Origin: an uncultured Erysipelotrichaceae bacterium
GTDB taxonomy: Bacteria > Bacillota_I > Bacilli_A > RFN20 > CAG-826
DNA: 49,753 bases
Reading direction: 5' to 3'
Assembly (NCBI GenBank): GCA_902797795.1
Contig: CADBUF010000078.1
Coordinates: 1-49,753 of the forward strand
In this document: in pieces, positions 12,376-36,368 of the stretch
Layout of the letters: each line of letters begins with the position of its first letter
Position numbering within the stretch: position 1 is the first letter of the stretch
Notes under the pieces: model-generated
Database searches by the model: none
Seen by the model: only the letters and a program-made list of their open reading frames with translations
What the model was told of the DNA's origin: nothing
Made by a program: the position numbers and the translations under genes

Positions 12376-14058
12376 ATGAGAGAAACATTATCTATTTTTA
12401 ATATTTGGCGCACGTACGCGGTAGAAGACAAAGACTTAGTTTCTGAATTAAAAGAAATGGAAGGCAAAAAAGAAGCGATTGATGATGCCTTTTATCAGGA
12501 ATTAGAATTTGGCACTGGCGGATTAAGAGGCGTAATTGGTGCAGGAACCAATAGAATGAATATTTATGTTGTTAGAAAGGCCTCTCAAGGATTTGCCAAC
12601 TATCTCAATAAGAATTTTTCCCATCCATCAGTGGCAATCAGTTATGATTCACGTATTAAAAGTACCTTGTTTGCTAAAACTGCTGCCGAAGTATTCGCGG
12701 CCAACAATATTAAAGTTCATATCTATAAAGAATTGATGCCAACACCAAACCTTAGCTATGCAGTTAGAGAATTACACTGTTCAGGTGGTATTATGGTTAC
12801 CGCTTCTCATAATCCAAGTAAATATAACGGTTATAAGGTTTATGGACAAGATGGCTGTCAAATTACCACAAAAGCAGCAGCAGATATATTAAGTGAAATT
12901 GAAAAAGTTGACCCTTTTAATGACGTCGATTATTGCCAATTCGAATTAGCCTTACAATCTAATTTAATCTCGTATATAGACGACTCCCTACATGATAAAT
13001 TCATAAATCGCGTAGAAAAAGAGAGTGTTCTCTTTGGTGATGAAATCAAAAAAGACTTTAAAATTATTTATTCCCCTCTTAACGGAACAGGACTAAAACC
13101 AGTCACAACAATTTTAAAGAAAAATGGTTATAACGTTTTTGTTGTCCCTGAGCAAGAAAAGCCAGATGGACATTTCCCAACTTGCCCATATCCAAATCCA
13201 GAAATTAGAGAAGCGATGGAATTAGGGATTAAGTACGCAAAAAGAGAAAAGGCTGACTTATTTATCGCCACTGATCCTGATTGTGATCGCGTCGGAACTG
13301 CAGTAAGAGATAATAAAACTAATTCGTTTGTTCTTATAAATGGTAATCAAATGGGTATTCTTCTTCTTGATTATATTTGTCACCAAAGAAAATCACATAA
13401 TAAGATGCCCAAACATCCAATTGCAATTAAAACCATTGTGACTACCGATATGTCGTTTCCAATTGCTAAAAATTATGGCGTGTCCATTAAGGAAGTATTA
13501 ACAGGGTTCAAATACATCGGAGAACAAATCTTATTCCTTGAAGAAAAGCACCTTGAAAATCAATACATTTTTGGTTTTGAAGAAAGCTATGGCTATCTAA
13601 GTGGAACATACGTTAGAGATAAAGACGCGGTTAATGGGGTTTACCTCATCGCAGAGATGTATTCTTATTATAAAAATAAAGGAATTTCTCTTTCAGAGAA
13701 GTTAGAAGAATTATATAACGAATATGGATATTATTCATCTTACTTGAATTCCTATACTTTTGAAGGAATTGAAGGCGCTAAAAAGATGAAAGTTATCATC
13801 GAAAAATTTAGAAATAATCAAGTTGTGTTTCCTGAATTACACATTAGTAAAGTAATTGACTATCAAAATGGAATTGATGACCTACCAAAATCAAATGTCA
13901 TTAAAATCATATTTGAAGAAGGACACTCAATTGTGGTTAGACCATCTGGAACAGAGCCAAAAATCAAAATTTATTTCTCACTGATTGGCAAATCAAATGA
14001 AGATAATAATGCTTTATATGAAAATCTACTCGAAATAATTAACAAGGAGATTCAATAA
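12376..14058 (+). CDS. pgcA: Phosphoglucomutase/phosphomannomutase (PgcA type)
   Basis: Alpha-D-phosphohexomutase that interconverts hexose 1- and 6-phosphates. Visible motifs: GTGGLRG near residue 40, phosphoserine loop VTASHNPSKYNGYK near 140, metal loop ATDPDCDRVG near 300, sugar loop GFEESYGYLSG near 400 and phosphate loop RPSGTEPKIKIY near 525. The ATG at 12376 (MRETLSIFNIW) gives 560 residues as in the family; a TTG at 12328 would place the -10 inside the gene. In this locus it is the enzyme expected to turn GH130-derived mannose 1-phosphate into mannose 6-phosphate. First gene of unit A; its stop overlaps the next start by one base. Confidence 0.92.
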   Translation: MRETLSIFNIWRTYAVEDKDLVSELKEMEGKKEAIDDAFYQELEFGTGGLRGVIGAGTNRMNIYVVRKASQGFANYLNKNFSHPSVAISYDSRIKSTLFAKTAAEVFAANNIKVHIYKELMPTPNLSYAVRELHCSGGIMVTASHNPSKYNGYKVYGQDGCQITTKAAADILSEIEKVDPFNDVDYCQFELALQSNLISYIDDSLHDKFINRVEKESVLFGDEIKKDFKIIYSPLNGTGLKPVTTILKKNGYNVFVVPEQEKPDGHFPTCPYPNPEIREAMELGIKYAKREKADLFIATDPDCDRVGTAVRDNKTNSFVLINGNQMGILLLDYICHQRKSHNKMPKHPIAIKTIVTTDMSFPIAKNYGVSIKEVLTGFKYIGEQILFLEEKHLENQYIFGFEESYGYLSGTYVRDKDAVNGVYLIAEMYSYYKNKGISLSEKLEELYNEYGYYSSYLNSYTFEGIEGAKKMKVIIEKFRNNQVVFPELHISKVIDYQNGIDDLPKSNVIKIIFEEGHSIVVRPSGTEPKIKIYFSLIGKSNEDNNALYENLLEIINKEIQ

Positions 14059-14834
14059 TGAATATTTTGTGTGTCGGTAACTCGTTCGCCGTAGATGCTT
14101 CAACCTATGTTCATCAAATTGCAGAACATATTGGAGAAAAAATCGATATCCACGTTTTATACATTCCTGGTTGTCCAATAAACTTACACTGGAAAAATTA
14201 TCTTTCTAGAGAAAAAGCTTATGAATTCTATGTAAATGGAAGCCTTTCTCCTCTTATGTGGTGTGATATTTTTGAAGGACTTAGATACACAAAATACGAC
14301 TATATAACCTTCCAACAAAGAAGCGGAGATTCTGGTGATGCATCAACTTTTTTCCCAGAATTAACCCTTTTATCGGAACATATTAAAAAAGACTATCAAG
14401 GTCAACATGTATTGCATAAAACCTGGAGCTACGCGAAATCATTTTCACATGATAAATATGGTAATAACCCATTAGATCAAGCTGCGATGGATAATGACAT
14501 TAAGGAAGCTTATCTAGAAGTTAGTAAAAAAGCTAACATTAAGTATATCATCCCTTCTGGTGAGGCTATTAAATTAGCAAGACAGGTATTTGGTGATGAA
14601 CTCAATCGTGATGGATATCACCTTAACGAAAGAGGAAGATTATTAGTCGGAATACTGTGGGTGATGTATTTTTTAGGTAAAGAAAATATCAACTTAGAAG
14701 GCTTTGTTCCTCGTGGATTTACCTATGACGACAAAACCCCTGGAGTAGATGAAAAAGAGATACCAACACTCGTAGAAATCGCTCAGAACGCACTTAAAAA
14801 TAACAAAGGACACAATTTATATGCTCAAAATTGA
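14058..14834 (+). CDS. DUF4886 SGNH-fold hydrolase, cytoplasmic
   Basis: Matches the DUF4886 type of SGNH hydrolases: LCVGNSFAVDAS at residues 4-15 carries the nucleophile Ser, YITFQQRSG near 92-100 is the family block, and DGYHLNERGRL near 192 carries the Asp/His pair. No signal peptide, so it acts inside the cell, probably removing acyl groups from imported oligosaccharides (inferred from context). ATG overlaps the mutase stop (TAATG) with AAGGAG upstream. A second DUF4886 domain is embedded in the secreted protein at 36410. Confidence 0.8.
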   Translation: MNILCVGNSFAVDASTYVHQIAEHIGEKIDIHVLYIPGCPINLHWKNYLSREKAYEFYVNGSLSPLMWCDIFEGLRYTKYDYITFQQRSGDSGDASTFFPELTLLSEHIKKDYQGQHVLHKTWSYAKSFSHDKYGNNPLDQAAMDNDIKEAYLEVSKKANIKYIIPSGEAIKLARQVFGDELNRDGYHLNERGRLLVGILWVMYFLGKENINLEGFVPRGFTYDDKTPGVDEKEIPTLVEIAQNALKNNKGHNLYAQN

Positions 14835-15514: not shown

Positions 15515-15557
15515 TTTCTCCTGGTTGAATGCAAAAATATTCATAGGAGAACTTTTT

Positions 15558-17660
15558 ATGTCTAATAAAAGAATTTGGTTATCAGCAGCCTCAATTTTGT
15601 TTTTAGTTGGCTGCGGAAGTAATAGCGGCAATAGTGGCAACGAACCTTACATTCCAGTAGTCACGCCTATTGAAGCTCCAGTAGTGAGCGTAAATGAAAA
15701 AGGTGATGGATTAATTTGGGAAGATGTTGCTAGAGCAACTTTATATGAAGTTGATATTAACGACGAAGAAACTGTCGAACTTGATGAACCAGAATATCTC
15801 TTCAGCAGTGTCGCTGGTGAATATAGTTTAAAAATTGTTTCTGTAGCGGCAAGTGGAGAAAAAAGTGAAGCCACTGAATTTGAATACGAATCACGTGCAA
15901 GCTCTTTATCCGAATTATATTGCGATGGAAGCAATGTAACTTGGGTAATCGGTTCATCTGATTATTACGCTCTCGAATATAGCGTTGATGGTGAACATTT
16001 TAGTTTGGTAAGTGAATCATACATCCCAGTAACTGTTAGCGGAGTTTATACAGTCCGTACAGTTAAAGGCTATAAGGAACAAGGAAGTATTTTCTATTCC
16101 ACTTCTGTTTCAAAATCAATTGTTGTCACTGAGCCAGCTGAATCAATGTATGTTTTAGAAGATGCTAGTGCAGAAGACAGTGCAACATTAAGTGAATCTT
16201 ACGAAAAATTTGTTTATAAAGATGGCAACTGGAAAGACACCACTTCTGAAGTTAGTTTAGATGGAAGTTATACGGATTACGTCGATGGTAACGCTGCCGA
16301 TTTCAAATACTGGTATCACAACAGCTACTTCTTATATGAAAAAGAGATAAGTCTTGATGGTTCATATAATGAATTTAGTTTCTCTGTTAAATCATACGAA
16401 TCTACCAATGCTGTTTTATCATTCCAAATCAAACAAGATTTAGTTATTAATGGCATTAATTTCAACGGCGTTTATATTAAATATGATGTCCCACAACTTC
16501 CAACCAGCTGGACAAAATATCGCGTTTCATTCAGCGATTCAAACTGGAAAGTTGTTTATGATAATCAACCATACGATTTCGCTACTATAGCAGCGTTTGT
16601 TAATAACTATGGTTTTAAAGTTCAAAAGTTAGAAGATTTCTTACCTTATTTTGATGTTTTCCAATTCAGATTAAGAGCAAGTTATCGTGATGGTGGACCA
16701 GTAGCACATACATATTTTGACAATGTGTGTTTATTAAATTCCGAATTAAAGAATACTGTCATTGAAACTATTATTCCTTCATTAAAAGCAAAAGAATCCT
16801 ATGCTTTCACTGGCAATTTATGTTCTGGGAAGATTAGTTTCTCTGAAGATGGTACTGGTTTACTTTCTGTATCTTCACCAATGGAACTTGACTTACCAGT
16901 TAAGCATGAAGTGGTTGAAGGAAAATTACATGTCTATTCAGAAGTAGAAGGAAAAGACTTTGATGCTTATTTAACTTCTAATGATGGCGGTACAAATCTC
17001 GTTCTTGAATCCGTAACTGGTACTTTTGCTACTTATATGCAAGGTATTGTTGCCGAAGCAGTTAATCTCTTAGATGATTTTGAATCTTACGAATCTACCG
17101 GTGTTGGTTTAGATAATGACCACCGCGATGAAAGCCAATTATCAGGACTTAGAGGTGCTTATTTTGCTGACTACTACACTGGTGGTAACGGCGATTCCCC
17201 AGTCGGAGGATCTAACTGGAGCTTAATGCGCTCAAGCGACTACAACGAATTGTCAAAAGACGTTTACCATACAGGAAGTCAATCTTTCAAATTAAAGAGC
17301 AACACTAATACCATGAGATTTATGACCTGGGGTTTAAAGGATGGAACCGCTACAAAAGGTTCTAAAGGTAAATATTTCTCATTATGGGCTAAAGGTGGAG
17401 ACGTTAGTAACATGACATTAAGAGTGTCTGTTTACGCGGTAAGCAAAGTTGATCCTTCTAATCAAGTTACTGACTCAATCAGAAAATGGACAGATTTCAC
17501 CGTTCCAATGAACAGTGGCTGGACAGAATACAAATTAGAATTAGATGAATCAAAAGAATATTATGGTTTCTCCATCACCACTAAAGATGGTGGAAACAAA
17601 CAATATGTCTACGTTGATGATATCTACATCTATAGCAGTATGTCTCCTTGGGGTAAATAA
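15558..17660 (+). CDS. Modular surface lipoprotein with carbohydrate-binding-like domains
   Basis: First gene of unit B. The 19-residue lipoprotein signal ends LVGC (Cys19). Next come one or two fibronectin-III-like folds (about 35-190), a beta-rich domain with the jelly-roll ending HTYFDNVCLL (about 195-400), a smaller beta domain (405-500) and a C-terminal module from LLDDFESYEST to YVDDIYIYSS (about 504-695). The C-terminal module is also found in the protein at 33882. No catalytic motif is seen, so it is probably a surface glycan-binding protein, the Gram-positive counterpart of SusE/SusF-like proteins. Start at 15558 is fixed by AGGAGA 8 bases upstream and by the signal peptide; a start at 15525 would add a non-signal stretch. 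Confidence 0.8.
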   Translation: MSNKRIWLSAASILFLVGCGSNSGNSGNEPYIPVVTPIEAPVVSVNEKGDGLIWEDVARATLYEVDINDEETVELDEPEYLFSSVAGEYSLKIVSVAASGEKSEATEFEYESRASSLSELYCDGSNVTWVIGSSDYYALEYSVDGEHFSLVSESYIPVTVSGVYTVRTVKGYKEQGSIFYSTSVSKSIVVTEPAESMYVLEDASAEDSATLSESYEKFVYKDGNWKDTTSEVSLDGSYTDYVDGNAADFKYWYHNSYFLYEKEISLDGSYNEFSFSVKSYESTNAVLSFQIKQDLVINGINFNGVYIKYDVPQLPTSWTKYRVSFSDSNWKVVYDNQPYDFATIAAFVNNYGFKVQKLEDFLPYFDVFQFRLRASYRDGGPVAHTYFDNVCLLNSELKNTVIETIIPSLKAKESYAFTGNLCSGKISFSEDGTGLLSVSSPMELDLPVKHEVVEGKLHVYSEVEGKDFDAYLTSNDGGTNLVLESVTGTFATYMQGIVAEAVNLLDDFESYESTGVGLDNDHRDESQLSGLRGAYFADYYTGGNGDSPVGGSNWSLMRSSDYNELSKDVYHTGSQSFKLKSNTNTMRFMTWGLKDGTATKGSKGKYFSLWAKGGDVSNMTLRVSVYAVSKVDPSNQVTDSIRKWTDFTVPMNSGWTEYKLELDESKEYYGFSITTKDGGNKQYVYVDDIYIYSSMSPWGK

Positions 17661-17672
17661 TTAAATATTGAT

Positions 17673-18689
17673 ATGTCAAAACGAGTAAGACTAGAAGACA
17701 TAGCAAAAGAATGCGGAGTAACAAAGGGATTAGTTTCTCGATCTTTAGCAGGAAAATACAATGTTGGAGATGAGAAGCGTAATCTTATCATGCAAAAAGC
17801 AGTCGAACTTGGTTACGATTTCAACAAACTGAGAACCAAAAAAACCAAAAATAGTTCAGTCGTTGTTATCGTTTCCCAGACAATACTGCTTAAAGAAGAT
17901 TTCTGGCAACCAATTTTGAAGAATATGTATGCTACACTTAACCGCGTTTCAATCAAGATGGAATACTTTGTCTTTGATTCAACAAATATTGATCTCGCTA
18001 GTGTGAAAGCTTTGAAAAGTAATCCATGTATTGCCTTTGTCATATTCCATCAAAATCCAGATGTCATATTTAAGGAATTGAAGAAGTTCAATAAACCTAT
18101 CGTGGAAGTTGATCCTAAATACATGCATTACACAGGAGTTACTCAAATCAAATATTCAAATTACACCTCGATTTATGAAGCAACTCAAAAGCTAATTGAT
18201 TATGGTCACAAAACTATATGTTTCTATGGAAGCGATTCCCACTCATATAGCTTTAGAGAAAGACACGAGGGCTTCCTAAGTTGCATTGACAATAATAAAG
18301 AAAAAGGAATACGCGGAGTTTCAATTCTGTTTGATAACAGCTCCCTTCAATACAGTGATAATGAGATGTTAATAAAAGCATTAAACAAAAATAAAGATAT
18401 CACTGCAATTATCTGCGCTAACGACATCGTCGCTCTTAATGCTTATAAAGTTATTAAAGGTTTAGGTAAACAAATCCCTGAAGATTATTCAATCATTGGA
18501 TTTGACAATGTTAGTTCTGGCAAATATTCATATCCAACTTTATCAACATTCAATGTTCCAAGGGAACAAATTGGCGATGAAATAGGATTATATATCGCTA
18601 GATTACGTCAGGAGGGAAAACCTCAATATTCAGAATTTACGATTAGATGTGATTTTATCGAGAGGGGTTCAATTACGAAATTGAATTAA
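17673..18689 (+). CDS. LacI/GalR-family transcriptional regulator
   Basis: Residues 4-55 form the LacI helix-turn-helix: VRLEDIAKECGVTKGLVSRSLAGK, followed by GDEKRNLIMQKAVELGY. The remainder is a periplasmic-binding-like effector domain (residues 60-338) with typical blocks such as CFYGSDSHSYSFRERHEGF and AIICANDIVALNAYKVI. Its place inside the sugar operon suggests it senses a product of the locus and binds the GTTTAC-type sites ahead of units A-C (inferred). There is no ribosome-binding sequence ahead of the ATG, so the protein may be made at low level from the long mRNA. Confidence 0.92.
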   Translation: MSKRVRLEDIAKECGVTKGLVSRSLAGKYNVGDEKRNLIMQKAVELGYDFNKLRTKKTKNSSVVVIVSQTILLKEDFWQPILKNMYATLNRVSIKMEYFVFDSTNIDLASVKALKSNPCIAFVIFHQNPDVIFKELKKFNKPIVEVDPKYMHYTGVTQIKYSNYTSIYEATQKLIDYGHKTICFYGSDSHSYSFRERHEGFLSCIDNNKEKGIRGVSILFDNSSLQYSDNEMLIKALNKNKDITAIICANDIVALNAYKVIKGLGKQIPEDYSIIGFDNVSSGKYSYPTLSTFNVPREQIGDEIGLYIARLRQEGKPQYSEFTIRCDFIERGSITKLN

Positions 18690-18697
18690 AGTGTTAT

Positions 18698-19681
18698 ATG
18701 AAAAATAAAAGTGATAACAAACTTATGAATATGCCTTGGGAAGAATGCCCAAAAGGTTTTACTGGCCCAATTTGGCGTTATTCTCTTAATCCAATAATTA
18801 ATCGACATCCTGCTGAAAACATTTCCCGCGTCTTTAATAGCGCCGCTGTTTATTTTAACAATGAATATGTTGGTGTTTTCCGCGGTGATAATCTCGATGA
18901 TATTCCTCATCTATATGTAGGTCATTCTAAAGATGGCATTAACTTTGAAATCAATAAAGATAAAATCGTCTTTGTGAATGAATCCGGTGAGGTTCTTGAA
19001 GATTCTGGATATCAATATGATCCAAGAGTCATTCCTTTTGAAGATTATTTCATCGTCGTTTGGTGTGATAATCTTTCAGGACCAACTATCGCGATTGCAA
19101 AAACCAAAGATTTCAAAACATTTGTCAAATTTGACTCGCCTTTCCTTCCATATAACCGTAATGGGGTTATCTTCCCAAGAAAAATTAATGGATCTTATTT
19201 GATGCTTTCTCGTCCAAGTGATTCAGGTCACACTGCGTTTGGTGATATTTTCCTATCAGAAAGCAAAGATTTAACATATTGGGGAAAACATCGCCTTGTG
19301 ATGAAATGTGGCTATGAATGGTGGTGCGCTTTAAAAGTAGGCGCTGGTCCAGTACCAATTGAATTAGATGATGGATGGTTATTATTTATCCATGGTGTTA
19401 ATCGCACATGTAACGGCTATGTCTATTCAATAGGTGGAATCATTTTAGATAAAAACGATCCATCAAAAGTTTTATATAGATGCAAGAATTTCTTACTCAC
19501 TCCAGAAGAGCAATATGAAACATGCGGTTTTGTTCCAAATGTTATCTTCCCTACTTCTGCGCTTGTTGATAAAGAAAACGGCAGAATCGCTATATATTAT
19601 GGTGCAAGCGACACATATACCTGTTTAGCGTTCACCACCATTGAGAGAGTTGTTAATTACATCAAAGAGCATTCTCGTTAA
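18698..19681 (+). CDS. GH130 beta-mannoside phosphorylase, subfamily 2-like
   Basis: Inverting phosphorylase that uses phosphate to release mannose 1-phosphate from beta-mannosides. The N-terminus MPWEECPKGFTGPIWRYSLNP, the catalytic block QYDPRV (Asp108), NGVIFPRKINGSYLMLSRPS, FGDIFLSES and GAGPVPIELDDGWLLFIHGV follow the GH130_2 enzymes such as UhgbMP, known to act on beta-1,4-mannosyl-GlcNAc and beta-1,4-manno-oligosaccharides. 327 residues, no signal peptide, so it works on imported sugar. It is followed within 6 bases by the importer genes. Whether it prefers Man-GlcNAc or mannan oligosaccharides cannot be decided from sequence alone. Confidence 0.9.
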   Translation: MKNKSDNKLMNMPWEECPKGFTGPIWRYSLNPIINRHPAENISRVFNSAAVYFNNEYVGVFRGDNLDDIPHLYVGHSKDGINFEINKDKIVFVNESGEVLEDSGYQYDPRVIPFEDYFIVVWCDNLSGPTIAIAKTKDFKTFVKFDSPFLPYNRNGVIFPRKINGSYLMLSRPSDSGHTAFGDIFLSESKDLTYWGKHRLVMKCGYEWWCALKVGAGPVPIELDDGWLLFIHGVNRTCNGYVYSIGGIILDKNDPSKVLYRCKNFLLTPEEQYETCGFVPNVIFPTSALVDKENGRIAIYYGASDTYTCLAFTTIERVVNYIKEHSR

Positions 19682-19687
19682 TAAGTT

Positions 19688-20653
19688 ATGGAAAAGCTTT
19701 TAATTAAGAGAAAACAAAGTTACGCATACTCATTCAAAAGAAGATTTAGTGCTTCTAAGTTTTTACTTTTGATGATTATCCCTGCGATTGTTTATTACGC
19801 GGTATTCTGCTACGCTCCAATGTATGGTGTTTTAATCGCCTTTACTAAGTATTCTCCTAAAAAAGGAATTATGGGTTCAGTCACAGATAACTGGATTGGT
19901 TTTGAAAACTTCAAATTCATTTTCAATTATCCAAGCTTCTGGACTGCATTTAAGAACACATTAATTATCGGTTCTTTAAAGATTATTATTTCATTTACAT
20001 CGGCGATTTTAGTGGCCTTACTCATTAACGAACTAAGAATGCGCTTCTTCAAGAAAGGTGTCCAAATTATTGTCACCTTCCCACACTTCTTATCATGGGT
20101 TGTTGTTGCAAGCTTGTTCCGGTTAACGCTGAGTGAGACGGGCGGAATAAGTTATCTGGTACAGCAATTAGGTGGTCAGCCGCTTAAATTCTTAAGCGAT
20201 GGAAAACTGTTCCTGTCACTATTATTTTCTAGTGACGTTTGGAAAGAAGCTGGCTGGAGTTCCATTATTTATATTGCCACCATGGCAGGTATTTCTACTG
20301 ACTTATATGAAGCAGCGAATATCGACGGTGCTAGCCGTATTCAAAAGATTTGGCACGTTACCTTACCAGGTATTCGACCAACCGCAATCTTACTCCTTAT
20401 TATGTCAGTAGGTGGCGTCTTATCTGCTGGATTTGATCAAATTTATAACTTAACTGGTTCTTTAAACAACGCAGTTGTTTTGGATTCAGTACAAATTATC
20501 GACGTCTTGATTTATCAAGGCACATTTGGTGGAGGTGGATTAACAATGGGTCAAACCACGGCAATCGGCTTATTCAAGTCGCTGGTTGGTTTCGTCTTAG
20601 TTATTACCACTGACCGTATAGCTAAGCTATGTGGAGAAAGGGGCATCATCTGA
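19688..20653 (+). CDS. ABC sugar importer permease, LplB type
   Basis: Inner component of a carbohydrate importer. Six hydrophobic segments, an LplB-like N-terminus (LLMIIPAIVYYAVFCYAPMYG) and the ATPase-contacting EAA loop EAANIDGASRIQKIWHVTLPG near residue 205-225. The LplB/YtcP pair usually carries complex oligosaccharides. Stops with TGA, which overlaps the next start by one base, so the two permeases are translationally coupled. Confidence 0.93.
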   Translation: MEKLLIKRKQSYAYSFKRRFSASKFLLLMIIPAIVYYAVFCYAPMYGVLIAFTKYSPKKGIMGSVTDNWIGFENFKFIFNYPSFWTAFKNTLIIGSLKIIISFTSAILVALLINELRMRFFKKGVQIIVTFPHFLSWVVVASLFRLTLSETGGISYLVQQLGGQPLKFLSDGKLFLSLLFSSDVWKEAGWSSIIYIATMAGISTDLYEAANIDGASRIQKIWHVTLPGIRPTAILLLIMSVGGVLSAGFDQIYNLTGSLNNAVVLDSVQIIDVLIYQGTFGGGGLTMGQTTAIGLFKSLVGFVLVITTDRIAKLCGERGII

Positions 20654-21561
20654 TGGCTAAAACAAAAATTGATAAACTTCCACTAGCGAGAAAAGAGCGA
20701 CCAGGACCATCTAATCGTTTTGGTGGTTTTGACGTTGTTCTTTTCATCATTCTATTGATATTTGCATTATTAATCATTTTCCCATTCTATTATTTATTTG
20801 TTGTTTCTATTACTCCTCAAGAAATTTACGTGAATAACCCACTTACTTTATGGACACCAAGAGTTACTTTTGATGCCTATAAATCAGTATTTAACGATTC
20901 ACGTATTTGGGGTGGATTAAAAATTACCTTAATCCTTCTATTTGGTGGAACTTTGTATCAAATGTTCTTCACTGTTATCACAGGTTACGCATTAAGCCGT
21001 AATAACTGGGTTGGTAAGAATTTTGTGATGAACATGATTTTAGTAACAATGTTCTTTGGCGGAGGATTAATTCCTTACTACATTTTGATTAAAACTCTCG
21101 GCATGATTAACACCATTTGGGTCATGATCATTCCTGGAGCTATTGATACATTTAATATGCTTTTGATGAGAAACTATTTTGCTTCTTTACCAAAAGAACT
21201 TGAAGAGAGTGCGAAGATTGATGGCGCTAACGATGTACAAATCTTTGTGAAAATCTTCCTTCCACTATCTCTTCCAATGTTAGCAACTGTCGGTCTATTC
21301 TTTGCCGTTGGCAACTGGAATTCTTGGTATAACGGTATGCTCTTTAACAGCAGCCAAAACTTAAAGACTTTACAACAAGTCCTTCAAGATATCGTCTATA
21401 CCCCAAGCAGTGGCATTCCAAACCCAGGCAAAATTAGAATCGACGATGAGAGTATGAAGATGGCCGCTATCTTCTTTACAATCATTCCAATGATGTTATT
21501 TTATCCATTCTTACAACGTTACTTCGTTAAAGGTATCGTTGTTGGCGCGATTAAAGGTTAG
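20653..21561 (+). CDS. ABC sugar importer permease, YtcP/AraQ type
   Basis: Second permease of the importer, with six hydrophobic segments and the EAA loop LEESAKIDGANDVQIFVKIFLP near residue 185-206. The C-terminal RYFVKGIVVGAIKG is the usual end of this family. I choose ATG at 20653 (MAKTKIDKLP), overlapping the upstream stop with GGAGAAAGGGG before it; a start at 20629 would add eight residues inside the previous gene. Confidence 0.93.
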   Translation: MAKTKIDKLPLARKERPGPSNRFGGFDVVLFIILLIFALLIIFPFYYLFVVSITPQEIYVNNPLTLWTPRVTFDAYKSVFNDSRIWGGLKITLILLFGGTLYQMFFTVITGYALSRNNWVGKNFVMNMILVTMFFGGGLIPYYILIKTLGMINTIWVMIIPGAIDTFNMLLMRNYFASLPKELEESAKIDGANDVQIFVKIFLPLSLPMLATVGLFFAVGNWNSWYNGMLFNSSQNLKTLQQVLQDIVYTPSSGIPNPGKIRIDDESMKMAAIFFTIIPMMLFYPFLQRYFVKGIVVGAIKG

Positions 21562-21573
21562 GAGGTATAACTT

Positions 21574-23166
21574 ATGCGCAAGAAATTTTATTTATTATTA
21601 GCAGCAACTGCTATCTCGTCAATTTCATTGACCGGATGTGGCGGAGAAGATGAGCAGAAAGAGGATGCTTATAGTGGAGATGGAAAATTAGCCATTTCCC
21701 TACGTAACCTCTATTTCGATGACTATCAAGGTGGAGATAGTTATATTCAAGAAATTGAAAGAAAATTCGGTGTTTCCTTATCATTTGAATCCTATTCTTG
21801 GTCTCAATGGGAGCAACAAGTCAGCGGTCAAATCAATGGTGGCAATCTTCCAGATGTCTTCCATGCGAATATTGATAGCTACAATTTCGCTCTTACTTAC
21901 AAATTCTGGGCTGAGGAAGAAATTATTAAACCTCTTCCATCAAATTTATCTTATTGGCCAAACATTCAAAAGATGATTTTAAACACCAGTAACATTCAAT
22001 CTCTTTACGTAAATGGACAATTATATGGTTTACCAATTGCTAAGAGTACAACCGATTATTCCACTACTTTCTCTCCATTTACCTATATCTATAGAAGAGA
22101 CTGGGCTAAACAATTTGGTGTTTATCAAGAAAATGATGAATACACTTGGGAGCAATTCATCAACTTACTTAATGTTTTCTCAACACAATTAGCAAGTTCT
22201 AATCGTTATGCATTAGGTGATGTTGAATGGGGTTATCCAAGTATTATCAACTTTTATAAACAAGTACCACACTGCTTTGCTTATAACGAAGTCACAAAAC
22301 AATACGTTAATAACTACACTACTCCTTTATATTTACAAGGATTAGAAATGGCGAAGAATTTCAGAAACTGGGGATTCTATTACCCAAGTCAAAACTCCGC
22401 CGCTGATGGACAATTAAATAAAGAATATTACGGAAACAAAATTGGTGTTCTTTACGAAAATCTTTCTTATAGCAACTATGAAACTTTAAAGACTATGCTC
22501 AAAAGATCCAATAGTAGCAATCCGTATTTCAATGTCGATGATGCGACCGCAATCATGAAAATCAAAGGTCCAGATGGAAAATATGCCTTAGAAGGTACCG
22601 ATAACTGGTTCTCCATGACTTTCTTTGATAATCGTATTAGTGACACAAAGATGTACAAAATCCTTTCAATCCTTGATTGGCTTTTATCCGAAGAAGGAAC
22701 AAGATTCTCAATTTATGGTTTTGAAGATTATGACTACATCATCAACGATGAAGGCGAAATCGAATTAGTCGAAGCTTATTGGCCAAAAGCCGATGATGGA
22801 TCTTATGCTCCAAAAAGAAATGGTGCGAAATATTTAAGATACCTCGCTTCTTTAGGCTATGACACATTAAATTATGATCCACTTACAAATAAAGAGTCTG
22901 TTGAATATCTCGAATCTTGGGAAAATGAAATGAAAGCCGCTCTTGATAGAGATGAACTCAAAGTTCTCAAAGAAAGACCACAAGTTATGTGGTTAACCAC
23001 TCAATTAAAGAGTCAGTTATCAGGATTAATGAGAACAACTGCCTTAAATAACGTTATGAAATATGTCTATGGTGAAATTTCTACATTAGATGAATTCTGT
23101 GGAAAATTTGGATATCCATGGCCAGATGTCTTAGCAGAAATTAATGGCGCAATAGGAGGTTATTAA
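21574..23166 (+). CDS. ABC sugar importer solute-binding lipoprotein
   Basis: Extracellular binding protein of the LplA type. Signal peptide ending LTGC (Cys22), then the opening sheet LAISLRNLYFDD and the QINGGNLPDVFHANI block shared by cluster-type sugar-binding proteins. 530 residues is normal for binding proteins partnered with LplB/YtcP, which take long oligosaccharides. GGAGG precedes the ATG. Ligand inferred from context: beta-manno-oligosaccharide or related. Confidence 0.92.
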   Translation: MRKKFYLLLAATAISSISLTGCGGEDEQKEDAYSGDGKLAISLRNLYFDDYQGGDSYIQEIERKFGVSLSFESYSWSQWEQQVSGQINGGNLPDVFHANIDSYNFALTYKFWAEEEIIKPLPSNLSYWPNIQKMILNTSNIQSLYVNGQLYGLPIAKSTTDYSTTFSPFTYIYRRDWAKQFGVYQENDEYTWEQFINLLNVFSTQLASSNRYALGDVEWGYPSIINFYKQVPHCFAYNEVTKQYVNNYTTPLYLQGLEMAKNFRNWGFYYPSQNSAADGQLNKEYYGNKIGVLYENLSYSNYETLKTMLKRSNSSNPYFNVDDATAIMKIKGPDGKYALEGTDNWFSMTFFDNRISDTKMYKILSILDWLLSEEGTRFSIYGFEDYDYIINDEGEIELVEAYWPKADDGSYAPKRNGAKYLRYLASLGYDTLNYDPLTNKESVEYLESWENEMKAALDRDELKVLKERPQVMWLTTQLKSQLSGLMRTTALNNVMKYVYGEISTLDEFCGKFGYPWPDVLAEINGAIGGY

Positions 23167-23175
23167 TAAAATAAT

Positions 23176-24750
23176 ATGAAAAAAGTAGAGAGATTTGGTT
23201 TATTAGGTCTTGCCACACTTCTATCTCTTTTTTCCTGTCAAAAAAATGAAGATCTTTCTTCAAACGTAAATCAAAATTCTTCTCCAACGCGTGCGGTTGT
23301 TGATACATCCTCAGTTGACAAATATCACATTGCCTTTGTTAAAGAAGATATTACTCAAAAAAACTTTGGTGGCTTAGGTGTCGAATGGGGCGCTTATGAA
23401 GACACCGATAAAATAGCTGAAGGTGGATGGGATAGAATCATCCATTATATGGATCACTTAGCCGCCGCTAGAATCCGTTTAATGATTAACTACGATTGGT
23501 TCTGCCAAAATTTTGATAACAAGGGAAACAGAGATCCTAGTGATGACACTTGGACTTATAATTTCACAAACAAATATGCAAAGAACATGATTGATATTTT
23601 GGAATATTGCCAAATTCATCATATCGATGTTGCTTTTGGAGCGTGGAATGTTATCGGTTCGCTTGAAGGTGATATTTGGAACATGATGGACCAAGTCACC
23701 AGCGATATACGTTGGGCTAAAATCACCAGCGATGTTTTAAATTTCCTTGTTAATGAAAAAGGATTCAGCTGTATTAAATGGTTTGTTAGCTCTAATGAGC
23801 CTAATTTTACCGGTAGTAAAGGATCATCCAAAAACTACAACAACACCTACCAAAAATGGGAACAAGGTGTTAAAAACGTTAGAAACGCTTTAGACGCGAT
23901 TGGCTTAAATAGAATTGGCATCATCGGAGGCGATACGACTGGTTTTGAAGGAACAGAAGAATATTTCACTGGCATTGCTTCAAATATCTCAAATATCGTT
24001 GCTGATTATGGTTACCATTTATACCTCAACAACATCGCTGTCGATAGAGGCGTGATGCTTGAAGAAATCAACAAATTACATACCAAAATCAAATTTATCG
24101 ATCCAAAATTCGGTAATAGTAAAAAAGTTGATATTTGGGAAGCTGGATTATTAGACGGTAAAACCATTTTGGACTGCCAAAAATTAATTAACACAGTCGA
24201 TTATGGAGTCAGAATGATGGATTACACCCTTCAATGTTTAGCGGGTGGAATGAATGGAGTTGTCTATTGGGATTTCGACGATGGAATGCACTTCATGTAT
24301 AGCTTAAATTCCACTACACCTAAAGAATGGGGTATGTTTTCCTCTCTAGCCGAAGCTAGCAGTGGTAAACAAGAATTAAGGCCTTGGTATCATTCTATTT
24401 CTTTACTTACACACTTATTTAAAAAGGGTAATGTTATTTATTCCCCATTACAAAACGACACGAGTATTGATAATACCTTTAGAAGTATTGCCACGATTAG
24501 TAAAGATGGCACTCAAGGTGGCTTTGCCTGTGTCAACGCGGGAGTTAGAACAACCACCAGAACATTCTACATGAATGATGAAGTTAAAGGCGATAAGCTT
24601 TATATCTATTATTTTGGAGAAGGTACATATCGTTTAGGTGAAGATGGTTTCATCGAACCTAACGATGTTATTGAAGGATCTTTAAATAAGAAAATTACTC
24701 TTACCATTCCTTCTAGATCTGGTGTTGTCGTCTCTAATACGAGGTTATAG
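23176..24750 (+). CDS. Lipoprotein glycoside hydrolase, clan GH-A fold (subfamily unknown)
   Basis: Surface-anchored (Cys21 after LFS) TIM-barrel hydrolase. The clan-A retaining pair is visible: acid/base Glu208 in SSNEPNF and a probable nucleophile Glu322 in VDIWEAGL, 114 residues apart, with GGLGVEWGAYE at strand 1 and VYWDFDDGMHF near strand 8. A C-terminal beta domain (about 400-524, ending TIPSRSGVVVSNTRL) resembles the side domain of GH30/GH39-like enzymes. It could be GH5, GH30, GH39 or an unassigned family. In this locus it is the best candidate for the endo-acting enzyme that cuts the polysaccharide outside the cell; that role is inferred. Confidence 0.75.
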   Translation: MKKVERFGLLGLATLLSLFSCQKNEDLSSNVNQNSSPTRAVVDTSSVDKYHIAFVKEDITQKNFGGLGVEWGAYEDTDKIAEGGWDRIIHYMDHLAAARIRLMINYDWFCQNFDNKGNRDPSDDTWTYNFTNKYAKNMIDILEYCQIHHIDVAFGAWNVIGSLEGDIWNMMDQVTSDIRWAKITSDVLNFLVNEKGFSCIKWFVSSNEPNFTGSKGSSKNYNNTYQKWEQGVKNVRNALDAIGLNRIGIIGGDTTGFEGTEEYFTGIASNISNIVADYGYHLYLNNIAVDRGVMLEEINKLHTKIKFIDPKFGNSKKVDIWEAGLLDGKTILDCQKLINTVDYGVRMMDYTLQCLAGGMNGVVYWDFDDGMHFMYSLNSTTPKEWGMFSSLAEASSGKQELRPWYHSISLLTHLFKKGNVIYSPLQNDTSIDNTFRSIATISKDGTQGGFACVNAGVRTTTRTFYMNDEVKGDKLYIYYFGEGTYRLGEDGFIEPNDVIEGSLNKKITLTIPSRSGVVVSNTRL

Positions 24751-24752
24751 TT

Positions 24753-27434
24753 ATGAAAAAGAGATGTTTATTATTACTTGCCTCGTTATTAGTTTTAGGA
24801 GCGTGTTCTGACTCTAGTGGCGGTTCAAGCACTCCTATTACACCAGTTAATCCAAGAACAGAAGTTGATTTCGATGAATTAGAAGATAACAACTATGTTC
24901 CATCAGAACAAAAAACTGGTGAAATTTCCTCTTTCTCACTCCTTTCACCTGCTTCTGGAGTTACTTTAGACGCTCTTGAAACATTTAAGTGGGAAAGCGC
25001 TGAAAACGCTGATAAATACACAATTGAAATTTGCTCAAGTGAATTATTTATCAACGATAACAGCATGATTGATTATTACATTCAAGAAAACATTAATGCG
25101 ACTAAATGGACAGTCACATCTACATTAATGCTTAAAAACACTAATTATTATTGGAGAGTTATTGCCTACAATAAATCTGATATTAAATATTGTAGCGAAG
25201 TATTCTCCTTCTATCACAAAGCTCCAGAAATTGAAGAAGTACATTTTGATGTTGGCGAAGCTGATGATTGGCAGCTCCACTCAGTTGGTTCTTACGCTGA
25301 TATCAGCATTGATAACTCTAACTTCTTTAAAAATAATCAACCATCATTAAAGGTATCATTTAAAGAAGAAGATACCCATCAAGGTATTCCTGAAAGTGAT
25401 GGATGGATTATTGTCTCTAAAACTATTGAAAAGAGTATCTATGGCACTGATGCTTTCTTATTCAACTTCTATTATGGTGGGCAAGATGCACAAGTATTCA
25501 TTCGTATGGTGGACCGTGATAATGAATATTGGTTTGCCCCTGTCATGATTTCTAATAACGCAAAACAACAAGTCATCTTAAAATTTTCTGACTTCGTTCA
25601 AAGAACAAAAGATGTTCCAGTTGGAAATATGGTGTTTGATTACGAAAGAATCAAGTATTTAGAAATCGTCTTTGAAAAAAGTTTTGGTGATGGCATTCTC
25701 CTAATTTCAGGTATGAAAGCCATTAAATTTGACAATTATCGTGACTTCTTTATTCAAAAACTTGATTTCACTTCTTATGAAGAAGAAAGATGGGTTAATG
25801 AAGGCTATAACTTTGAAAAAGAAGTAACTGAAGATGAATTAACCTTAAGATATTACGGCACTAATTCAGAAGGAAAGCCAAAAATTAATGGTTATGGTTT
25901 TGCTAAGATTTATGTCAATCAATATTTCTATGCAGGCGATGCGATTAAGATTAAGGTTAAATACACTGGATCTAAAGGAACTAACGCAGTCATTCGTATT
26001 TATGAAGAAGATACGGATAGATGGTCATATAAATTACCATTCAGTTCACTCGTAGCTGATGAATATGTGGAATTGATTATTCCATACGCTGCCTTTGCTA
26101 AAAGTGACACTCCTGGTGATGGAAAACGTCAATTCTATAACATCATCAACCTCCAATTTGGTCTAGAAGGCCAATATGGTGCTGGTACATTAAGTTATAA
26201 AGACTTTGAAATCGTTAGTAAGAAAGATTACAAAGAAGAATATGAAAGAATAGTCGGCCCTGATGGCTTAGTGGAAGATTTCAGCAATTACAAATATACA
26301 TCTGAATTATTCATGAGTTGGGATTCTTCTGAAGTCAACAAAGATGAATATATGTTATTAAATGACACTAACAAGATTGGTGGCGCTTCTAATCCATATT
26401 GTGGCCAATTTGAATATAAGAGCGATATGGAACCAGCTAGATACACTATTTCGACCTCTGTTGATTTAGGAACAAGTTTCTCCTCATTATCAATTTGGAT
26501 GAAAGACTTCTCTACTAAGAGTGGAGATTCTCGCTTTGGCTATCTCACAAATTATAGCGCATACGTAAACATCTATATTTATTTAAAGAGTTCAGAAATT
26601 TATCTCTATCCTTTAGGTTCAATTGATAGGGTTTGGAAGGAATACAATATTCCATTCTCCAGTTTTGAACTTACAAATCGTGATGAAGTATTACATATAC
26701 CAAATCCAATTACTGGAGGCGGTATTAGTAAAATCGAATTCACCCTTCAATATTTCTATTACACGATTCAAGGTGTTCCACTACCACAATACACGAATAA
26801 TAACCAAGTCTTTGTTGATAACATCTATTTAACTAACGATGACGTCTATTCTGAAGTCGAAAAAGAAAAGATTGTCAAAATGGATGGAGATATCGCTTTA
26901 GTTGATGATTTCGAAGACTATGAAGAAACTGAAGAACTTGAATATAACTGGAATGATGGTCGTGAACACGAATATCAACATAAAGAATTAAGTAATGTTG
27001 TTTCAAGTGAAGGCGATTCTCATTCTATGGCAGTTCAATATAAAGGAAACGCTGAATCTCCAGCATATTATATTGCTCCTGCATTTGCTTCTGATGTTAA
27101 AGGCAGAGCCTTAAAAGTTTCCTTATATAGTGAAAAATCAATGACTATCTACGTCAATATTTATCTCACTATTGGAACAAGCAACATTCAATATCGAGCA
27201 ACAATCTCTAACAGTGCGACAAATTGGACTGAATACGCTCTCGGCTTTAACAACTTCTCTGTTGTTTCTGGAACACAAAGAACATTAACAGCGAATGATT
27301 TAGTTCATATCACTCGTATTTCCTTTGGTATGGCATATTACGGTGATAATGATTTACATCAACTTTATATCGATAATTTAATGTTCGATTATTCGTTATC
27401 CTATAACACCAATACACGTCGTGTTATCGAATAG
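24753..27434 (+). CDS. Large multi-domain glycan-binding lipoprotein
   Basis: 893 residues with lipobox LGAC (Cys18). Domain order: a fibronectin-III-like domain (about 50-150), then four jelly-roll-like segments at about 160-325, 330-490, 505-700 and 715-885. The last two each open with LVEDFSNYKYT / LVDDFEDYEET and end QVFVDNIYL / QLYIDNLMF, the 'D-F-x-x-Y ... V-D-N-I' frame of CBM-like folds. No catalytic residues are evident. Probably the main surface polysaccharide-binding protein of the locus. I cannot assign a named CBM family. Confidence 0.78.
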   Translation: MKKRCLLLLASLLVLGACSDSSGGSSTPITPVNPRTEVDFDELEDNNYVPSEQKTGEISSFSLLSPASGVTLDALETFKWESAENADKYTIEICSSELFINDNSMIDYYIQENINATKWTVTSTLMLKNTNYYWRVIAYNKSDIKYCSEVFSFYHKAPEIEEVHFDVGEADDWQLHSVGSYADISIDNSNFFKNNQPSLKVSFKEEDTHQGIPESDGWIIVSKTIEKSIYGTDAFLFNFYYGGQDAQVFIRMVDRDNEYWFAPVMISNNAKQQVILKFSDFVQRTKDVPVGNMVFDYERIKYLEIVFEKSFGDGILLISGMKAIKFDNYRDFFIQKLDFTSYEEERWVNEGYNFEKEVTEDELTLRYYGTNSEGKPKINGYGFAKIYVNQYFYAGDAIKIKVKYTGSKGTNAVIRIYEEDTDRWSYKLPFSSLVADEYVELIIPYAAFAKSDTPGDGKRQFYNIINLQFGLEGQYGAGTLSYKDFEIVSKKDYKEEYERIVGPDGLVEDFSNYKYTSELFMSWDSSEVNKDEYMLLNDTNKIGGASNPYCGQFEYKSDMEPARYTISTSVDLGTSFSSLSIWMKDFSTKSGDSRFGYLTNYSAYVNIYIYLKSSEIYLYPLGSIDRVWKEYNIPFSSFELTNRDEVLHIPNPITGGGISKIEFTLQYFYYTIQGVPLPQYTNNNQVFVDNIYLTNDDVYSEVEKEKIVKMDGDIALVDDFEDYEETEELEYNWNDGREHEYQHKELSNVVSSEGDSHSMAVQYKGNAESPAYYIAPAFASDVKGRALKVSLYSEKSMTIYVNIYLTIGTSNIQYRATISNSATNWTEYALGFNNFSVVSGTQRTLTANDLVHITRISFGMAYYGDNDLHQLYIDNLMFDYSLSYNTNTRRVIE

Positions 27435-27445
27435 AGGTAGTAAGT

Positions 27446-28462
27446 ATGATTAAATTAGAAAAATATCAAAATAATCCTATCCTCGTTAAAAACAAAAAGA
27501 ACAAATGGGAAAGCCTCTGTGTTTTAAATCCTGCGGTGATTTATAACGAAGAAGAAAAGCTTTTATATATGCTATATCGTAGCGCTGGAAATGATAAACA
27601 ACATTATATCTATATTGGTTTAGCTACTAGCGAAGATGGTATTCATTTTAAAAGACAAAGTGATAAGCCATTAATTGCTCCCGATGTCAAAGGTGCGGAT
27701 GGAGGAGGAGTAGAAGATCCTCGATTAGTAAAAATCGATGATTATTATTTCCTTACTTATGCCTCTCGCCCATTTGCCCCAGGACAATATTGGAGAGAAG
27801 ATAAAGAATATTTTGGCTTCCAACCAAAAGCTGGTCCTAGAACACTTATTTATAACGATACACAAACCCATTTAGCGGTCTCTAAAGATCTCAAAAATTG
27901 GAAAAAACTTGGACGTATTACTGATTCTAGATTTGATGATCGAGATGTCATTATTTTTCCAGAAAAAGTTAACGGCAAATTTGTCAAAATCTCTAGAGCG
28001 ATGAATAAATGCGGGGAAGGCTATCAAAATAAGAAACCCGCCATCTGGCTCTCTTATTCAGATGATTTACTTGAATGGAGAGAAGAAGAACATCTCCTAT
28101 ATGAAGGAAAAGAATCTTGGGAAGATGAAAAAGTTGGTGGAAGTTGTCCTCCTATTAAAACAAGCGAAGGATGGTTATTCATCTATCACGGGGTTTCTTC
28201 TAAAGACAAGCAATATCGTGTCGGTGCGATGCTATTAGATTTAAAGAACCCGCTTAAAATCCTCGGACGAACTAAAGACTTCATCATGGAACCAGAATTC
28301 CATTTTGAATCAGATGGTTTCTATAGCGGATGCGTTTTCCCTACCGGTATCGTAGAAGTAAAAAACAAATATTACATCTATTATGGAGCAGGAGATCAAT
28401 GTATCTGCCTCGCTACCATTGAAAAAGAAAAATTATTAAAAGAATTGAAAGGAGGAAAATAA
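27446..28462 (+). CDS. GH130 family enzyme, second and divergent copy
   Basis: Five-bladed propeller enzyme. Family blocks: NPAVIYNEEEKLLYMLYR, IGLATSEDGIHF, GGGVEDPRL with catalytic Asp91, FPEKVNGKFVKISR, GGSCPPIKTSEGWLFIYHGV and IYYGAGDQCICLA. It lacks the PWEE-type N-terminus of the copy at 18698, so it is from another subgroup; members of such subgroups include 1,2-beta-mannoside phosphorylases and hydrolases. No signal peptide, so cytoplasmic. A second linkage or chain length is the likely target. Confidence 0.85.
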   Translation: MIKLEKYQNNPILVKNKKNKWESLCVLNPAVIYNEEEKLLYMLYRSAGNDKQHYIYIGLATSEDGIHFKRQSDKPLIAPDVKGADGGGVEDPRLVKIDDYYFLTYASRPFAPGQYWREDKEYFGFQPKAGPRTLIYNDTQTHLAVSKDLKNWKKLGRITDSRFDDRDVIIFPEKVNGKFVKISRAMNKCGEGYQNKKPAIWLSYSDDLLEWREEEHLLYEGKESWEDEKVGGSCPPIKTSEGWLFIYHGVSSKDKQYRVGAMLLDLKNPLKILGRTKDFIMEPEFHFESDGFYSGCVFPTGIVEVKNKYYIYYGAGDQCICLATIEKEKLLKELKGGK

Positions 28463-33716: not shown

Positions 33717-33745
33717 CCCATCAGCAAATGATGGGTTTTTGTTTT
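33717..33745 (+). terminator. Intrinsic terminator of sugar unit B
   Basis: Stem CCCATCA / TGATGGG with loop GCAAA, followed by TTTTTGTTTTT. It ends the 18-kb operon that begins at 15558. Confidence 0.88.
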
Positions 33746-33881: not shown

Positions 33882-36368
33882 ATGGCAAAGAAAAAAATAT
33901 CATTTTTACTAATCATGACATCTTGCCTTTTAGCAGTTGGATTAATTTCCACTGGTGTCGAATCTTCAATTTTGAAGGCTATGCGTGGTGCTAACCCAAG
34001 TAGCTACGATTTAGTCTTAAGTGGAAGTAACGCTCCATCAAGCTTAACATCATCATATCAAAACGAAGTCAAAGGTGCAGTTGTCACCGAATTAGGCAAC
34101 ACTGTCAATCTTACTTTCTCAGGTGCCAAATTAAATGGTGGCAATATCCAAATTGCAAATCATGGAAAGATTCACAATTTCGATACAGACAACTCCGCTG
34201 TTACTGCTGTTAATGGAGTCACACTCGTTGGTAGTGGATCGTTCTCCTTTAAACCAGCAATCTTAGACAGTGGTAAAGGTGCATTATTAGCCGAAGCCGA
34301 TCCAGTTACAATTAGCGCTGGCGCTGGCAAAGTTACTGTTCCAGCATGTGACTATTTCGAACTCGAAGCCGGAGATAGCGGCGCAACAATTACAAGTTTA
34401 ACTTTATCATTCTCTTGTGATCCAAGCGCTTATGATAACAAACTTATTAACGGAACATACACTGTTCTTGGTGTTGATACTTACACATACAAACTAGTAT
34501 TTAGTAATGGCACCGCCACTCTTACTTCACTTGATAAACCAAGCAATACAAGTACAAGTGGTACTGTTGCTCTTAGTGGCAGAACAAGTGGTACTGTTAC
34601 CCTTGGAAAATCTTCATATTCTTTAAGTAGTTATGACGGTTATTCCTTTGCTCTCTATAGCGGAGCATACACAAACTTTAATGGAAAAACATTTAATAAA
34701 GTCCATAAAGTTGAAAATTTCCAATCTTATTCCGCAACTGGTACTGGTTATGTCAGTGCTGATGCAAAATGGACAACAACTGGTTTAAGATCTCAAATCT
34801 ACGCTGATTATTACACTGGAAGCAGTTCTGGTGAAATCGGTGGTAGCGGTTGGCCAATCATGACATCAACTGATAACACAACCTTATTAAGTACCAAAGG
34901 ACATGACGGCACAAAAGGTGGTGCATTCAAATTCTCAAACGGCATGGGTATGAGATACATCTCCATGAATGAATTATATGGTGTCGAATCCATTATTGGT
35001 AAAGGTGCCAAATTATCATTATGGGCTCGTGGTGCTTATACAAACGCCAGTTTCAATACAAATCATGCTTCTGATACACCAATGAAAGCATACGCTTTCT
35101 ATGCAACTCCTCTTACTCCGTCAAATCAAACATCAGTAAGAGAGACATTTGATTTCACCGTATCAAGTGGTTCAACATGGCAACATTTTGAATTTGATTT
35201 AACAGCTGGTAGAAGATATTACGGTTTTGGTTTCTATGCAAAACAATCCAGTGGATCAACTCAATATGTCCCAATTGACGACGTTGAAATTTATACTGAT
35301 TCACCATACAAAGAATACGTTGCTCCTGTAGCCGTCACTGGTGTTTCATTAAATACTAACGCTCTTAACCTCGTTACTGGTGGAAGCGATTCATTAATTG
35401 CTACCGTTGCTCCAAATGATGCAACAAATAAGAATGTTACATGGTCAACCAGTAATTCAAGTGTTGCTACAGTAGCTGATGGCGTCGTTACCGCTGTTTC
35501 TGCTGGTAATGCCACTATTACTGTTACAACTGTTGATGGCGGATACACTGCAACATGTACAGTCACAGTTTCTGCTCCAGTTGCTTATTATCCAAGTGGT
35601 ACATTCTATGCCCCAGTTACAATTGGTAGTGCTTCATACAAATTAGTCATCGCAATTGGTACACAAGCCAATCAATTAGTTGGTGTTAAGATTTCAACAT
35701 ACGATGCATCCCCAACTGGTATTACATATAACAGTAGTAATAACACATTCACAATCACCACTACTGGTAGTGTTGGTGGATACACTGTTGGTAATATTAC
35801 CGGTAAATACGATTACGCTAATGATAGATTAACTAATGTTAACTGTTCTGGTCAAATCGGTGCAGCCGTTAGTAATCTCACATTAAATAGACCAACTGAT
35901 AGTTCAACTATGAAGTTCAACAACTGTGATGCTTCTACATCAGTCTTACAATCTACATTCAAACGTAGATATATGTCTGGAAGCTGGCAAGTTGATAGCT
36001 CTAACGCAGATAGAATTACCAGTAATACAACCGAATTTGCTGCTGGTTCAGGTTCCTTAAAACGTAGAGGATACTCTGGTGGCGCTGTTGCTCTTAACTT
36101 TAACAGTGACTTCTCCAGCGCTATTACCGTTGCTAATATTCAATTCTGGGTCTATAATCCTTCAAATTCTGACATTAGTTTGAGAATGTGGGGTTATAAG
36201 GCAAAGAGCTTTGGAAACAACTTTGAAACTGGTTCAGTTACTGCAAAAGCTAAGAGCTGGACTTATGTTGGAATGGGATTCTCCTCAGCCGCAATTTACA
36301 ACTGGCAAATTGCTGACTTCAATAACACTGGTGTATATCTCTCATTTGACGATATCTTCCTATTCTAA
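33882..36368 (+). CDS. Large secreted modular protein with BIG2 domain
   Basis: 828 residues with a strong ribosome site (AAGGAGG) and an N-terminal signal or anchor sequence (residues 5-25) without a clear lipobox. Domain order: N-terminal beta module (about 40-185), a small beta domain (190-270), the FESY/DFESY-type module shared with the 15558 protein (about 275-470), a bacterial Ig-like BIG2 domain (about 483-563; VTGVSLNTNALNLVTGG ... VTWSTSNSSVATV), then two C-terminal modules (575-680 and 685-828) shared with the next protein. No catalytic residues recognised; a cell-surface glycan-binding or scaffold role is inferred. Confidence 0.75.
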   Translation: MAKKKISFLLIMTSCLLAVGLISTGVESSILKAMRGANPSSYDLVLSGSNAPSSLTSSYQNEVKGAVVTELGNTVNLTFSGAKLNGGNIQIANHGKIHNFDTDNSAVTAVNGVTLVGSGSFSFKPAILDSGKGALLAEADPVTISAGAGKVTVPACDYFELEAGDSGATITSLTLSFSCDPSAYDNKLINGTYTVLGVDTYTYKLVFSNGTATLTSLDKPSNTSTSGTVALSGRTSGTVTLGKSSYSLSSYDGYSFALYSGAYTNFNGKTFNKVHKVENFQSYSATGTGYVSADAKWTTTGLRSQIYADYYTGSSSGEIGGSGWPIMTSTDNTTLLSTKGHDGTKGGAFKFSNGMGMRYISMNELYGVESIIGKGAKLSLWARGAYTNASFNTNHASDTPMKAYAFYATPLTPSNQTSVRETFDFTVSSGSTWQHFEFDLTAGRRYYGFGFYAKQSSGSTQYVPIDDVEIYTDSPYKEYVAPVAVTGVSLNTNALNLVTGGSDSLIATVAPNDATNKNVTWSTSNSSVATVADGVVTAVSAGNATITVTTVDGGYTATCTVTVSAPVAYYPSGTFYAPVTIGSASYKLVIAIGTQANQLVGVKISTYDASPTGITYNSSNNTFTITTTGSVGGYTVGNITGKYDYANDRLTNVNCSGQIGAAVSNLTLNRPTDSSTMKFNNCDASTSVLQSTFKRRYMSGSWQVDSSNADRITSNTTEFAAGSGSLKRRGYSGGAVALNFNSDFSSAITVANIQFWVYNPSNSDISLRMWGYKAKSFGNNFETGSVTAKAKSWTYVGMGFSSAAIYNWQIADFNNTGVYLSFDDIFLF

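Follow-up and report, generated by a model that had tools for sequence, protein, structure and literature searches.

A lineage-restricted beta-sandwich module in two predicted surface proteins of a conserved, probable mannoside-utilization locus of uncultured gut Bacilli

An uncultured Erysipelotrichaceae bacterium carries, on contig CADBUF010000078.1, two genes whose products look alike over a single region of each. The stretch analysed here, positions 1–49,753 of that contig, is called the window. An initial annotation, made by eye, proposed that the shared region is an unnamed module of about 190 residues with a carbohydrate-binding fold, present in surface proteins of two different operons. 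Is the likeness one of descent and, if so, what would such a module do in this locus? Features given below between positions 15,558 and 40,442 of the window lie on the forward (+) strand, and proteins are named for their start positions.

The motifs behind that proposal are present in ORF 15525–17660, with its ATG at 15558, and in ORF 33882–36368. When the full proteins were compared by BLASTP, one strong match alone was obtained, in which residues 503–709 of the 15558 protein paired with residues 264–476 of the 33882 protein at 32% identity and 49% positives over 219 columns (84.7 bits, E = 5e-21); the remaining segments gave noise. Profile searches place the module, which we call A, at 17064–17657, the C-terminus of the 15558 protein (copy 1), and at 34704–35315, residues 275–478 of the 33882 protein (copy 2). 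The original placement was right, and its limits (17070–17650 and residues 275–470) were slightly too narrow. In the organism's own genome (1.17 Mb in 78 contigs) module A was found at exactly two sites, with E values of 1.2e-133 and 1.2e-23. Serine, glycine and tyrosine are abundant in both proteins, and one might ask if composition or convergence made them alike by coincidence. The BLASTP E value was obtained with compositional adjustment, however, a single profile and 57 intermediate sequences cover the two copies, and hhalign gave unrelated domains of these proteins probabilities below 2%. In these negative controls A showed no relationship to domain X, to the N-domain of 33882 or to modules C1 and C2 of protein 24753, all described below. 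Coincidence is thus extremely improbable as an explanation, chance similarity of the copies being ruled out by BLASTP and the hhalign controls, and the two modules are homologous.

The carriers are of two types, and family scans recognised no catalytic domain in either. Type 1, represented by the 15558 protein (15558–17660), comprises lipoproteins with Ig-like parts, a module M and one or two copies of A, each with an X domain. In the window this protein has a lipobox (SILFLVGC), an Ig-like region, M (16227–16733, residues 235–403), X (16764–17063) and the C-terminal A. A lipobox is present in 25 of the 29 lipoprotein-type carriers, and two of the remaining four are truncated by contig ends. 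Type 2, represented by the 33882 protein (33882–36368), is secreted, with a signal peptide and no convincing lipobox, and has an N-domain followed by X and A, often a Big_2 domain, and an X-like domain (X′) with a module B. In the window the X domain is at 34434–34703, Big_2, an Ig-like domain, at 35331–35564 (PF02368, E = 1e-12), and B, after X′, at the C-terminus (35919–36365). Only the 15558 type has all the features of a predicted surface lipoprotein that lacks a catalytic domain and is encoded together with the enzymes and transporter of the locus.

The X domain, of about 90–100 residues, lies directly upstream of A. It precedes every module A, so that the repeating element is a two-domain X-A unit. 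An X profile built from single-copy lipoproteins recovered X before A in 22 of 24 tandem copies, and a profile from the 33882 group did so in 21 of 24; between the 33882 and single-copy groups sensitivity was weaker, 3/17 and 6/17.

Diverged relatives of A were identified by hhalign between separately built profiles. Module M matched A with 97% probability (E = 1e-10), and B with 97% (E = 1e-11). A second B module, B2 (39053–39538), forms the C-terminus of the SGNH (DUF4886) putative esterase 36410 (36410–39541), which has the same N-domain as 33882; B2 matched B at 99.9% and A at 95%. The lipoprotein 24753 (24753–27434) has four beta-sandwich modules, C1–C4, of which C3 and C4 are weakly related to A and C1 and C2 are not; these modules form two pairs, C1/C2, of a different family, and C3/C4. 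The coupled X domain and the extra diverged copies, like the conservation of the whole as one locus, were overlooked in the initial annotation. Two unusual arrangements were seen in other genomes. L061:7988-11605 (genome G059) encodes a chimera in which an X-A unit of the first-tandem type is joined to the Big_2-X′-B tail typical of 33882-type proteins. At the same locus position in L112 (12478-15738), a lipoprotein with an M-type module and other beta modules replaces A, which suggests that modules have been exchanged at the locus head.

The module was called unnamed, and it is indeed covered by neither Pfam nor NCBIfam. Neither window copy scored above threshold against any Pfam, NCBIfam or PDB sequence family. 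This includes existing CBM families, and no Pfam CBM model matched either window carrier at E ≤ 0.1. The best sub-threshold family was MAM (PF00629), seen in 13 of 56 module A members with a best E of 6.5e-4; against its cut-off of 26.4 bits the 33882 copy scored 13.7 and the 15558 copy 13.4. CBM_4_9 gave sub-threshold matches in just two of the 56 (best E = 8e-5), and the gingipain-type cleaved adhesin domain gave a profile E of 0.89. As profile matches go, the MAM, CBM_4_9 and gingipain hits all appear to point to one fold.

A predicted structure agrees with this. An AlphaFold2 model of the X-A unit (298 residues, 26 sequences) had a mean pLDDT of 92.9 and a pTM of 0.88, and in it A is a beta-sandwich and X a seven-strand meander. 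In Foldseek and VIA-align searches the structural matches of A were mostly CBMs, mannan-binding ones included. VIA-align Z scores were 12.2 for CBM4 (CBM4-2), 12.0 for the CBM of the mannanase 1wky, 11.7 for CBM61, 11.5 for CBM11, 10.6 for CBM29 with mannohexaose (1w8u) and 10.5 for CBM16 with mannopentaose (3oeb), and CBM22 was matched in Foldseek. The carbohydrate-binding fold proposed earlier is therefore borne out by a confident model with structural matches to numerous CBM families of the PDB, and the prediction of a CBM-type fold holds because that model is a beta-sandwich with Z of about 12 to CBMs. Module A resembles the beta-sandwich CBMs (CBM4/9, CBM11, CBM16, CBM22, CBM29, CBM61) in overall fold, in domain size and in residing in extracellular multimodular proteins, with Z of 10.5–12.2 over 130–150 residues for CBM4, CBM11, CBM16, CBM29 and CBM61. 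It differs from them in its coupling to X, in a sequence identity of only about 5–19% with the window copies lacking any Pfam CBM match, and in that its ligand is putative. A V-D-D-I strand, emphasised in the initial annotation, is a general trait of this beta-sandwich fold and by itself weak evidence for specificity.

The match list also included MAM, CIA30-like, cyclase and gingipain adhesin structures, which are not sugar-binding domains. MAM, CIA30-like and cyclase domains share the fold, and so the fold alone is no proof of sugar binding. Module A might instead mediate adhesion or assembly between proteins, docking the surface proteins of the locus to one another or to the cell wall without binding the substrate, by analogy with the MAM-type or gingipain adhesin domains. 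Both are jelly-roll beta-sandwiches with weak profile likeness to A and are the best sub-threshold families; gingipain K2 ranks high among the structural matches (Z 12.0, 13% identity), and related modules are common to several proteins of the one locus. We consider docking unlikely, given that the structural matches are mostly glycan-binding CBMs, that the window copies fall under the cut-off for every family match, MAM included, and that a glycan binder predicts the tight linkage to catabolic genes described below.

Module A is lineage-restricted within the samples searched. A search of the same family found it in 30 of 224 genomes, although in one of these the match was poor and incomplete. 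By profile it was present in 30 of 279 genomes of the order, 29 from the organism's own family and one (G243) from a second family. Evenly drawn samples of the class (395 genomes) and of the phylum (392 genomes) contained none outside this order, and their matches all came from the organism's own genus. In a contig search with a closer alignment subset, 15 of 16 loci were of Bacilli type by record title and one was titled Christensenella sp.; the matching records were labelled as uncultured Bacillales, Erysipelotrichaceae and Bacilli MAGs, including RUG isolates and a roe-deer omasum bin. Profile searches of the fetched loci, which came from the organism's own family and one sister-family genome, gave 57 distinct full copies of A.

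Across 56 copies E7, Y9, G13, R30, W52, R85, G94, W153, L160, Y167, D185 and P195 are near-invariant. A maximum-likelihood tree, some deep forks of which are weak, clusters the copies by position (33882 type, single, first tandem and second tandem) and not by genome, and for this reason we regard the copies as old paralogs. These data bear on a further explanation, that A is mainly a structural spacer which extends other domains from the membrane and has no ligand of its own. Module A does always occur as one of several beta domains in a row (X, Ig-like, M), and part of a conserved C-terminal DD motif is gone from the second of two tandem copies. Yet six residues, R30, W52, R85, W153, Y167 and D185, are kept in at least 90% of copies, beyond the expected needs of a spacer, and the position-specific clades persist across genera. 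A spacer role thus appears rather less probable even than docking.

The genes around the carriers are conserved. The 15558 gene is the first of the series and is followed by a LacI-family regulator (17673–18689), the neighbour of the A-module lipoprotein in almost every locus. Next come a GH130 enzyme (18698–19681), by sequence comparison closest to TM1225 and beta-1,4-mannooligosaccharide phosphorylases, an ABC sugar importer of two permeases and a solute-binding protein (19688–23166), the GH clan A-fold lipoprotein 23176 (23176–24750), the 24753 lipoprotein and a second GH130 (27446–28462), closest to beta-1,2-mannobiose phosphorylases. As far as the 23176 gene, this order holds in nearly all fetched neighbourhoods not truncated by a contig end, and 24753 and the second GH130 follow in the fetched loci. 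In long-form loci it continues with a GDSL protein, three small proteins, an ABC ATPase, the type 2 carrier, the SGNH protein and manA, the mannose-6-phosphate isomerase gene (39543–40442; TIGR00218, above cut-off). A few loci deviate, some with inverted genes or with genes on separate contigs.

Module A (30 of 279 genomes) and the 23176 gene (32 of 279) occur together in 29 genomes, with a Fisher p of 7e-35 that overstates independence, since the genomes are related. Among the exceptions, G121 is truncated by a contig end, G033 stops inside an X-domain-bearing gene, G144 retains 23176 merely as a contig-end fragment and G074 has another multimodular lipoprotein at the same position. The claim that the two carriers belong to different operons can be defended at the level of transcription units: a terminator-like hairpin (33717–33735; 0.0 expected in shuffles) in a gap of 224 bp separates that of 15558 from that of 33882, and both nevertheless lie within one conserved locus. 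A shared operator palindrome was sought upstream of the 15558 and 33882 genes and not found. In seven other loci (L045, L053, L055, L057, L058, L063 and L064) a perfect palindrome, TGCATTATAATGCA, precedes the A-module lipoprotein gene by 9–71 bases; it is absent upstream of the window's genes and is a possible LacI operator.

What, then, is the substrate? The GH130 enzymes, ManA and the esterases agree with mannan or glucomannan, two of the glycans named as test ligands in the initial annotation. The pathway genes include a PMM/PGM-family mutase in addition to manA, and the locus encodes several putative esterases of SGNH, GDSL, SASA and alpha/beta-hydrolase types. Two of these are DUF4886 SGNH proteins, one (14058–14834) apparently without a signal peptide and the other (36410–39541) secreted and bearing B; they are possibly a cytoplasmic and surface esterase pair. 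Our best guess for the substrate is an acetylated beta-mannan or glucomannan. The two GH130 proteins are of differing type within one locus, beta-1,4-mannoside-like (18698–19681) and beta-1,2-mannobiose-like (27446–28462). Given the latter, the glycan might be something other than plant beta-1,4-mannan, perhaps a mannan that contains beta-1,2 links.

The organism's own genome, which is 86% complete, yielded neither a GH26 nor a GH5 mannanase. The 23176 lipoprotein, present in nearly all module A genomes, is a probable extracellular depolymerase. It matches neither Pfam nor NCBIfam, and its model (mean pLDDT 76.5), a TIM barrel with a beta-sandwich, has a GH30 structure as its best Foldseek match (E = 5e-18). 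The N-E-P and W-E glutamates are conserved. From the model, 23176 is predicted to be a clan GH-A enzyme, and it is a candidate for a new GH family.

Module A is almost always beside the same mannan-digesting genes, and for this reason it probably grips a polysaccharide at the cell surface. Our preferred reading, which we hold to be probable, is that A is a lineage-specific CBM of the galactose-binding-like beta-sandwich kind, binding the substrate of a mannoside-utilization locus at the surface. The 15558 and 33882 proteins would most likely serve a beta-mannan utilization locus as its surface glycan-binding proteins, with the X-A unit occurring once or twice in the membrane-anchored lipoprotein at the head and once in the secreted protein at the tail. 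Module A would bind the locus substrate, probably acetylated beta-mannan or glucomannan, and B and M probably bind it too. The bound glycan would be held at the surface and handed over to the GH-A hydrolase 23176 and to the esterases, among them the module-bearing SGNH protein, and the resulting oligosaccharides would be imported by the ABC system. Phosphorolysis by GH130 would then feed glycolysis through the phosphomannomutase-type mutase and ManA. A bolder version, possible though short of probable in our judgement, is that the X-A unit defines a new mannan-specific CBM family restricted to a single order of uncultured gut Bacilli which, with an undescribed GH family represented by 23176, captures and cuts acetylated beta-mannan by a route free of GH26 and GH5.

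The locus resembles the mannan loci of Roseburia intestinalis and Faecalibacterium prausnitzii, with which it shares the ABC importer, GH130 phosphorylases, SGNH-type esterases and a phosphomannomutase step (PMC6385246, PMC8262883). A LacI regulator is shared with the F. prausnitzii locus as reported there (PMC6385246, PMC8262883). The extracellular apparatus is different. Unlike those loci, this one has at its head a non-catalytic and presumably glycan-binding lipoprotein. It also has a GH130 of beta-1,2 type and a GH-A lipoprotein that is unclassified, and a scan of window ORFs revealed no GH26, GH36, GH3 or epimerase. The surface glycan-binding proteins of Bacteroidota, for example those with CBM112, are also non-catalytic, have Ig-like domains and a terminal binding module, and are encoded in a mannan locus (PMC13357471). 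CBM112, compared here by description only, has two ligand-stacking tryptophans (PMC13357471), and this locus differs from that type in being of Bacillota, with an ABC importer and no SusCD. Module A looks like a new and undescribed offshoot of a widespread fold within a system of known kind.

These results assign a likely function to a domain family absent from Pfam and NCBIfam, and tie that family to a conserved mannoside-catabolism locus of small-genome, uncultured Bacilli of the gut. Were mannan binding to be shown, it would define a new CBM family and favour the view that these bacteria degrade polymers as well as scavenging oligosaccharides. The GH-A hydrolase 23176, distant relatives of which occur within large proteins from a different family in its class (G552, G498), is conserved and secreted and belongs to no Pfam family. 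It is a concrete target in the search for a new mannan-active enzyme.
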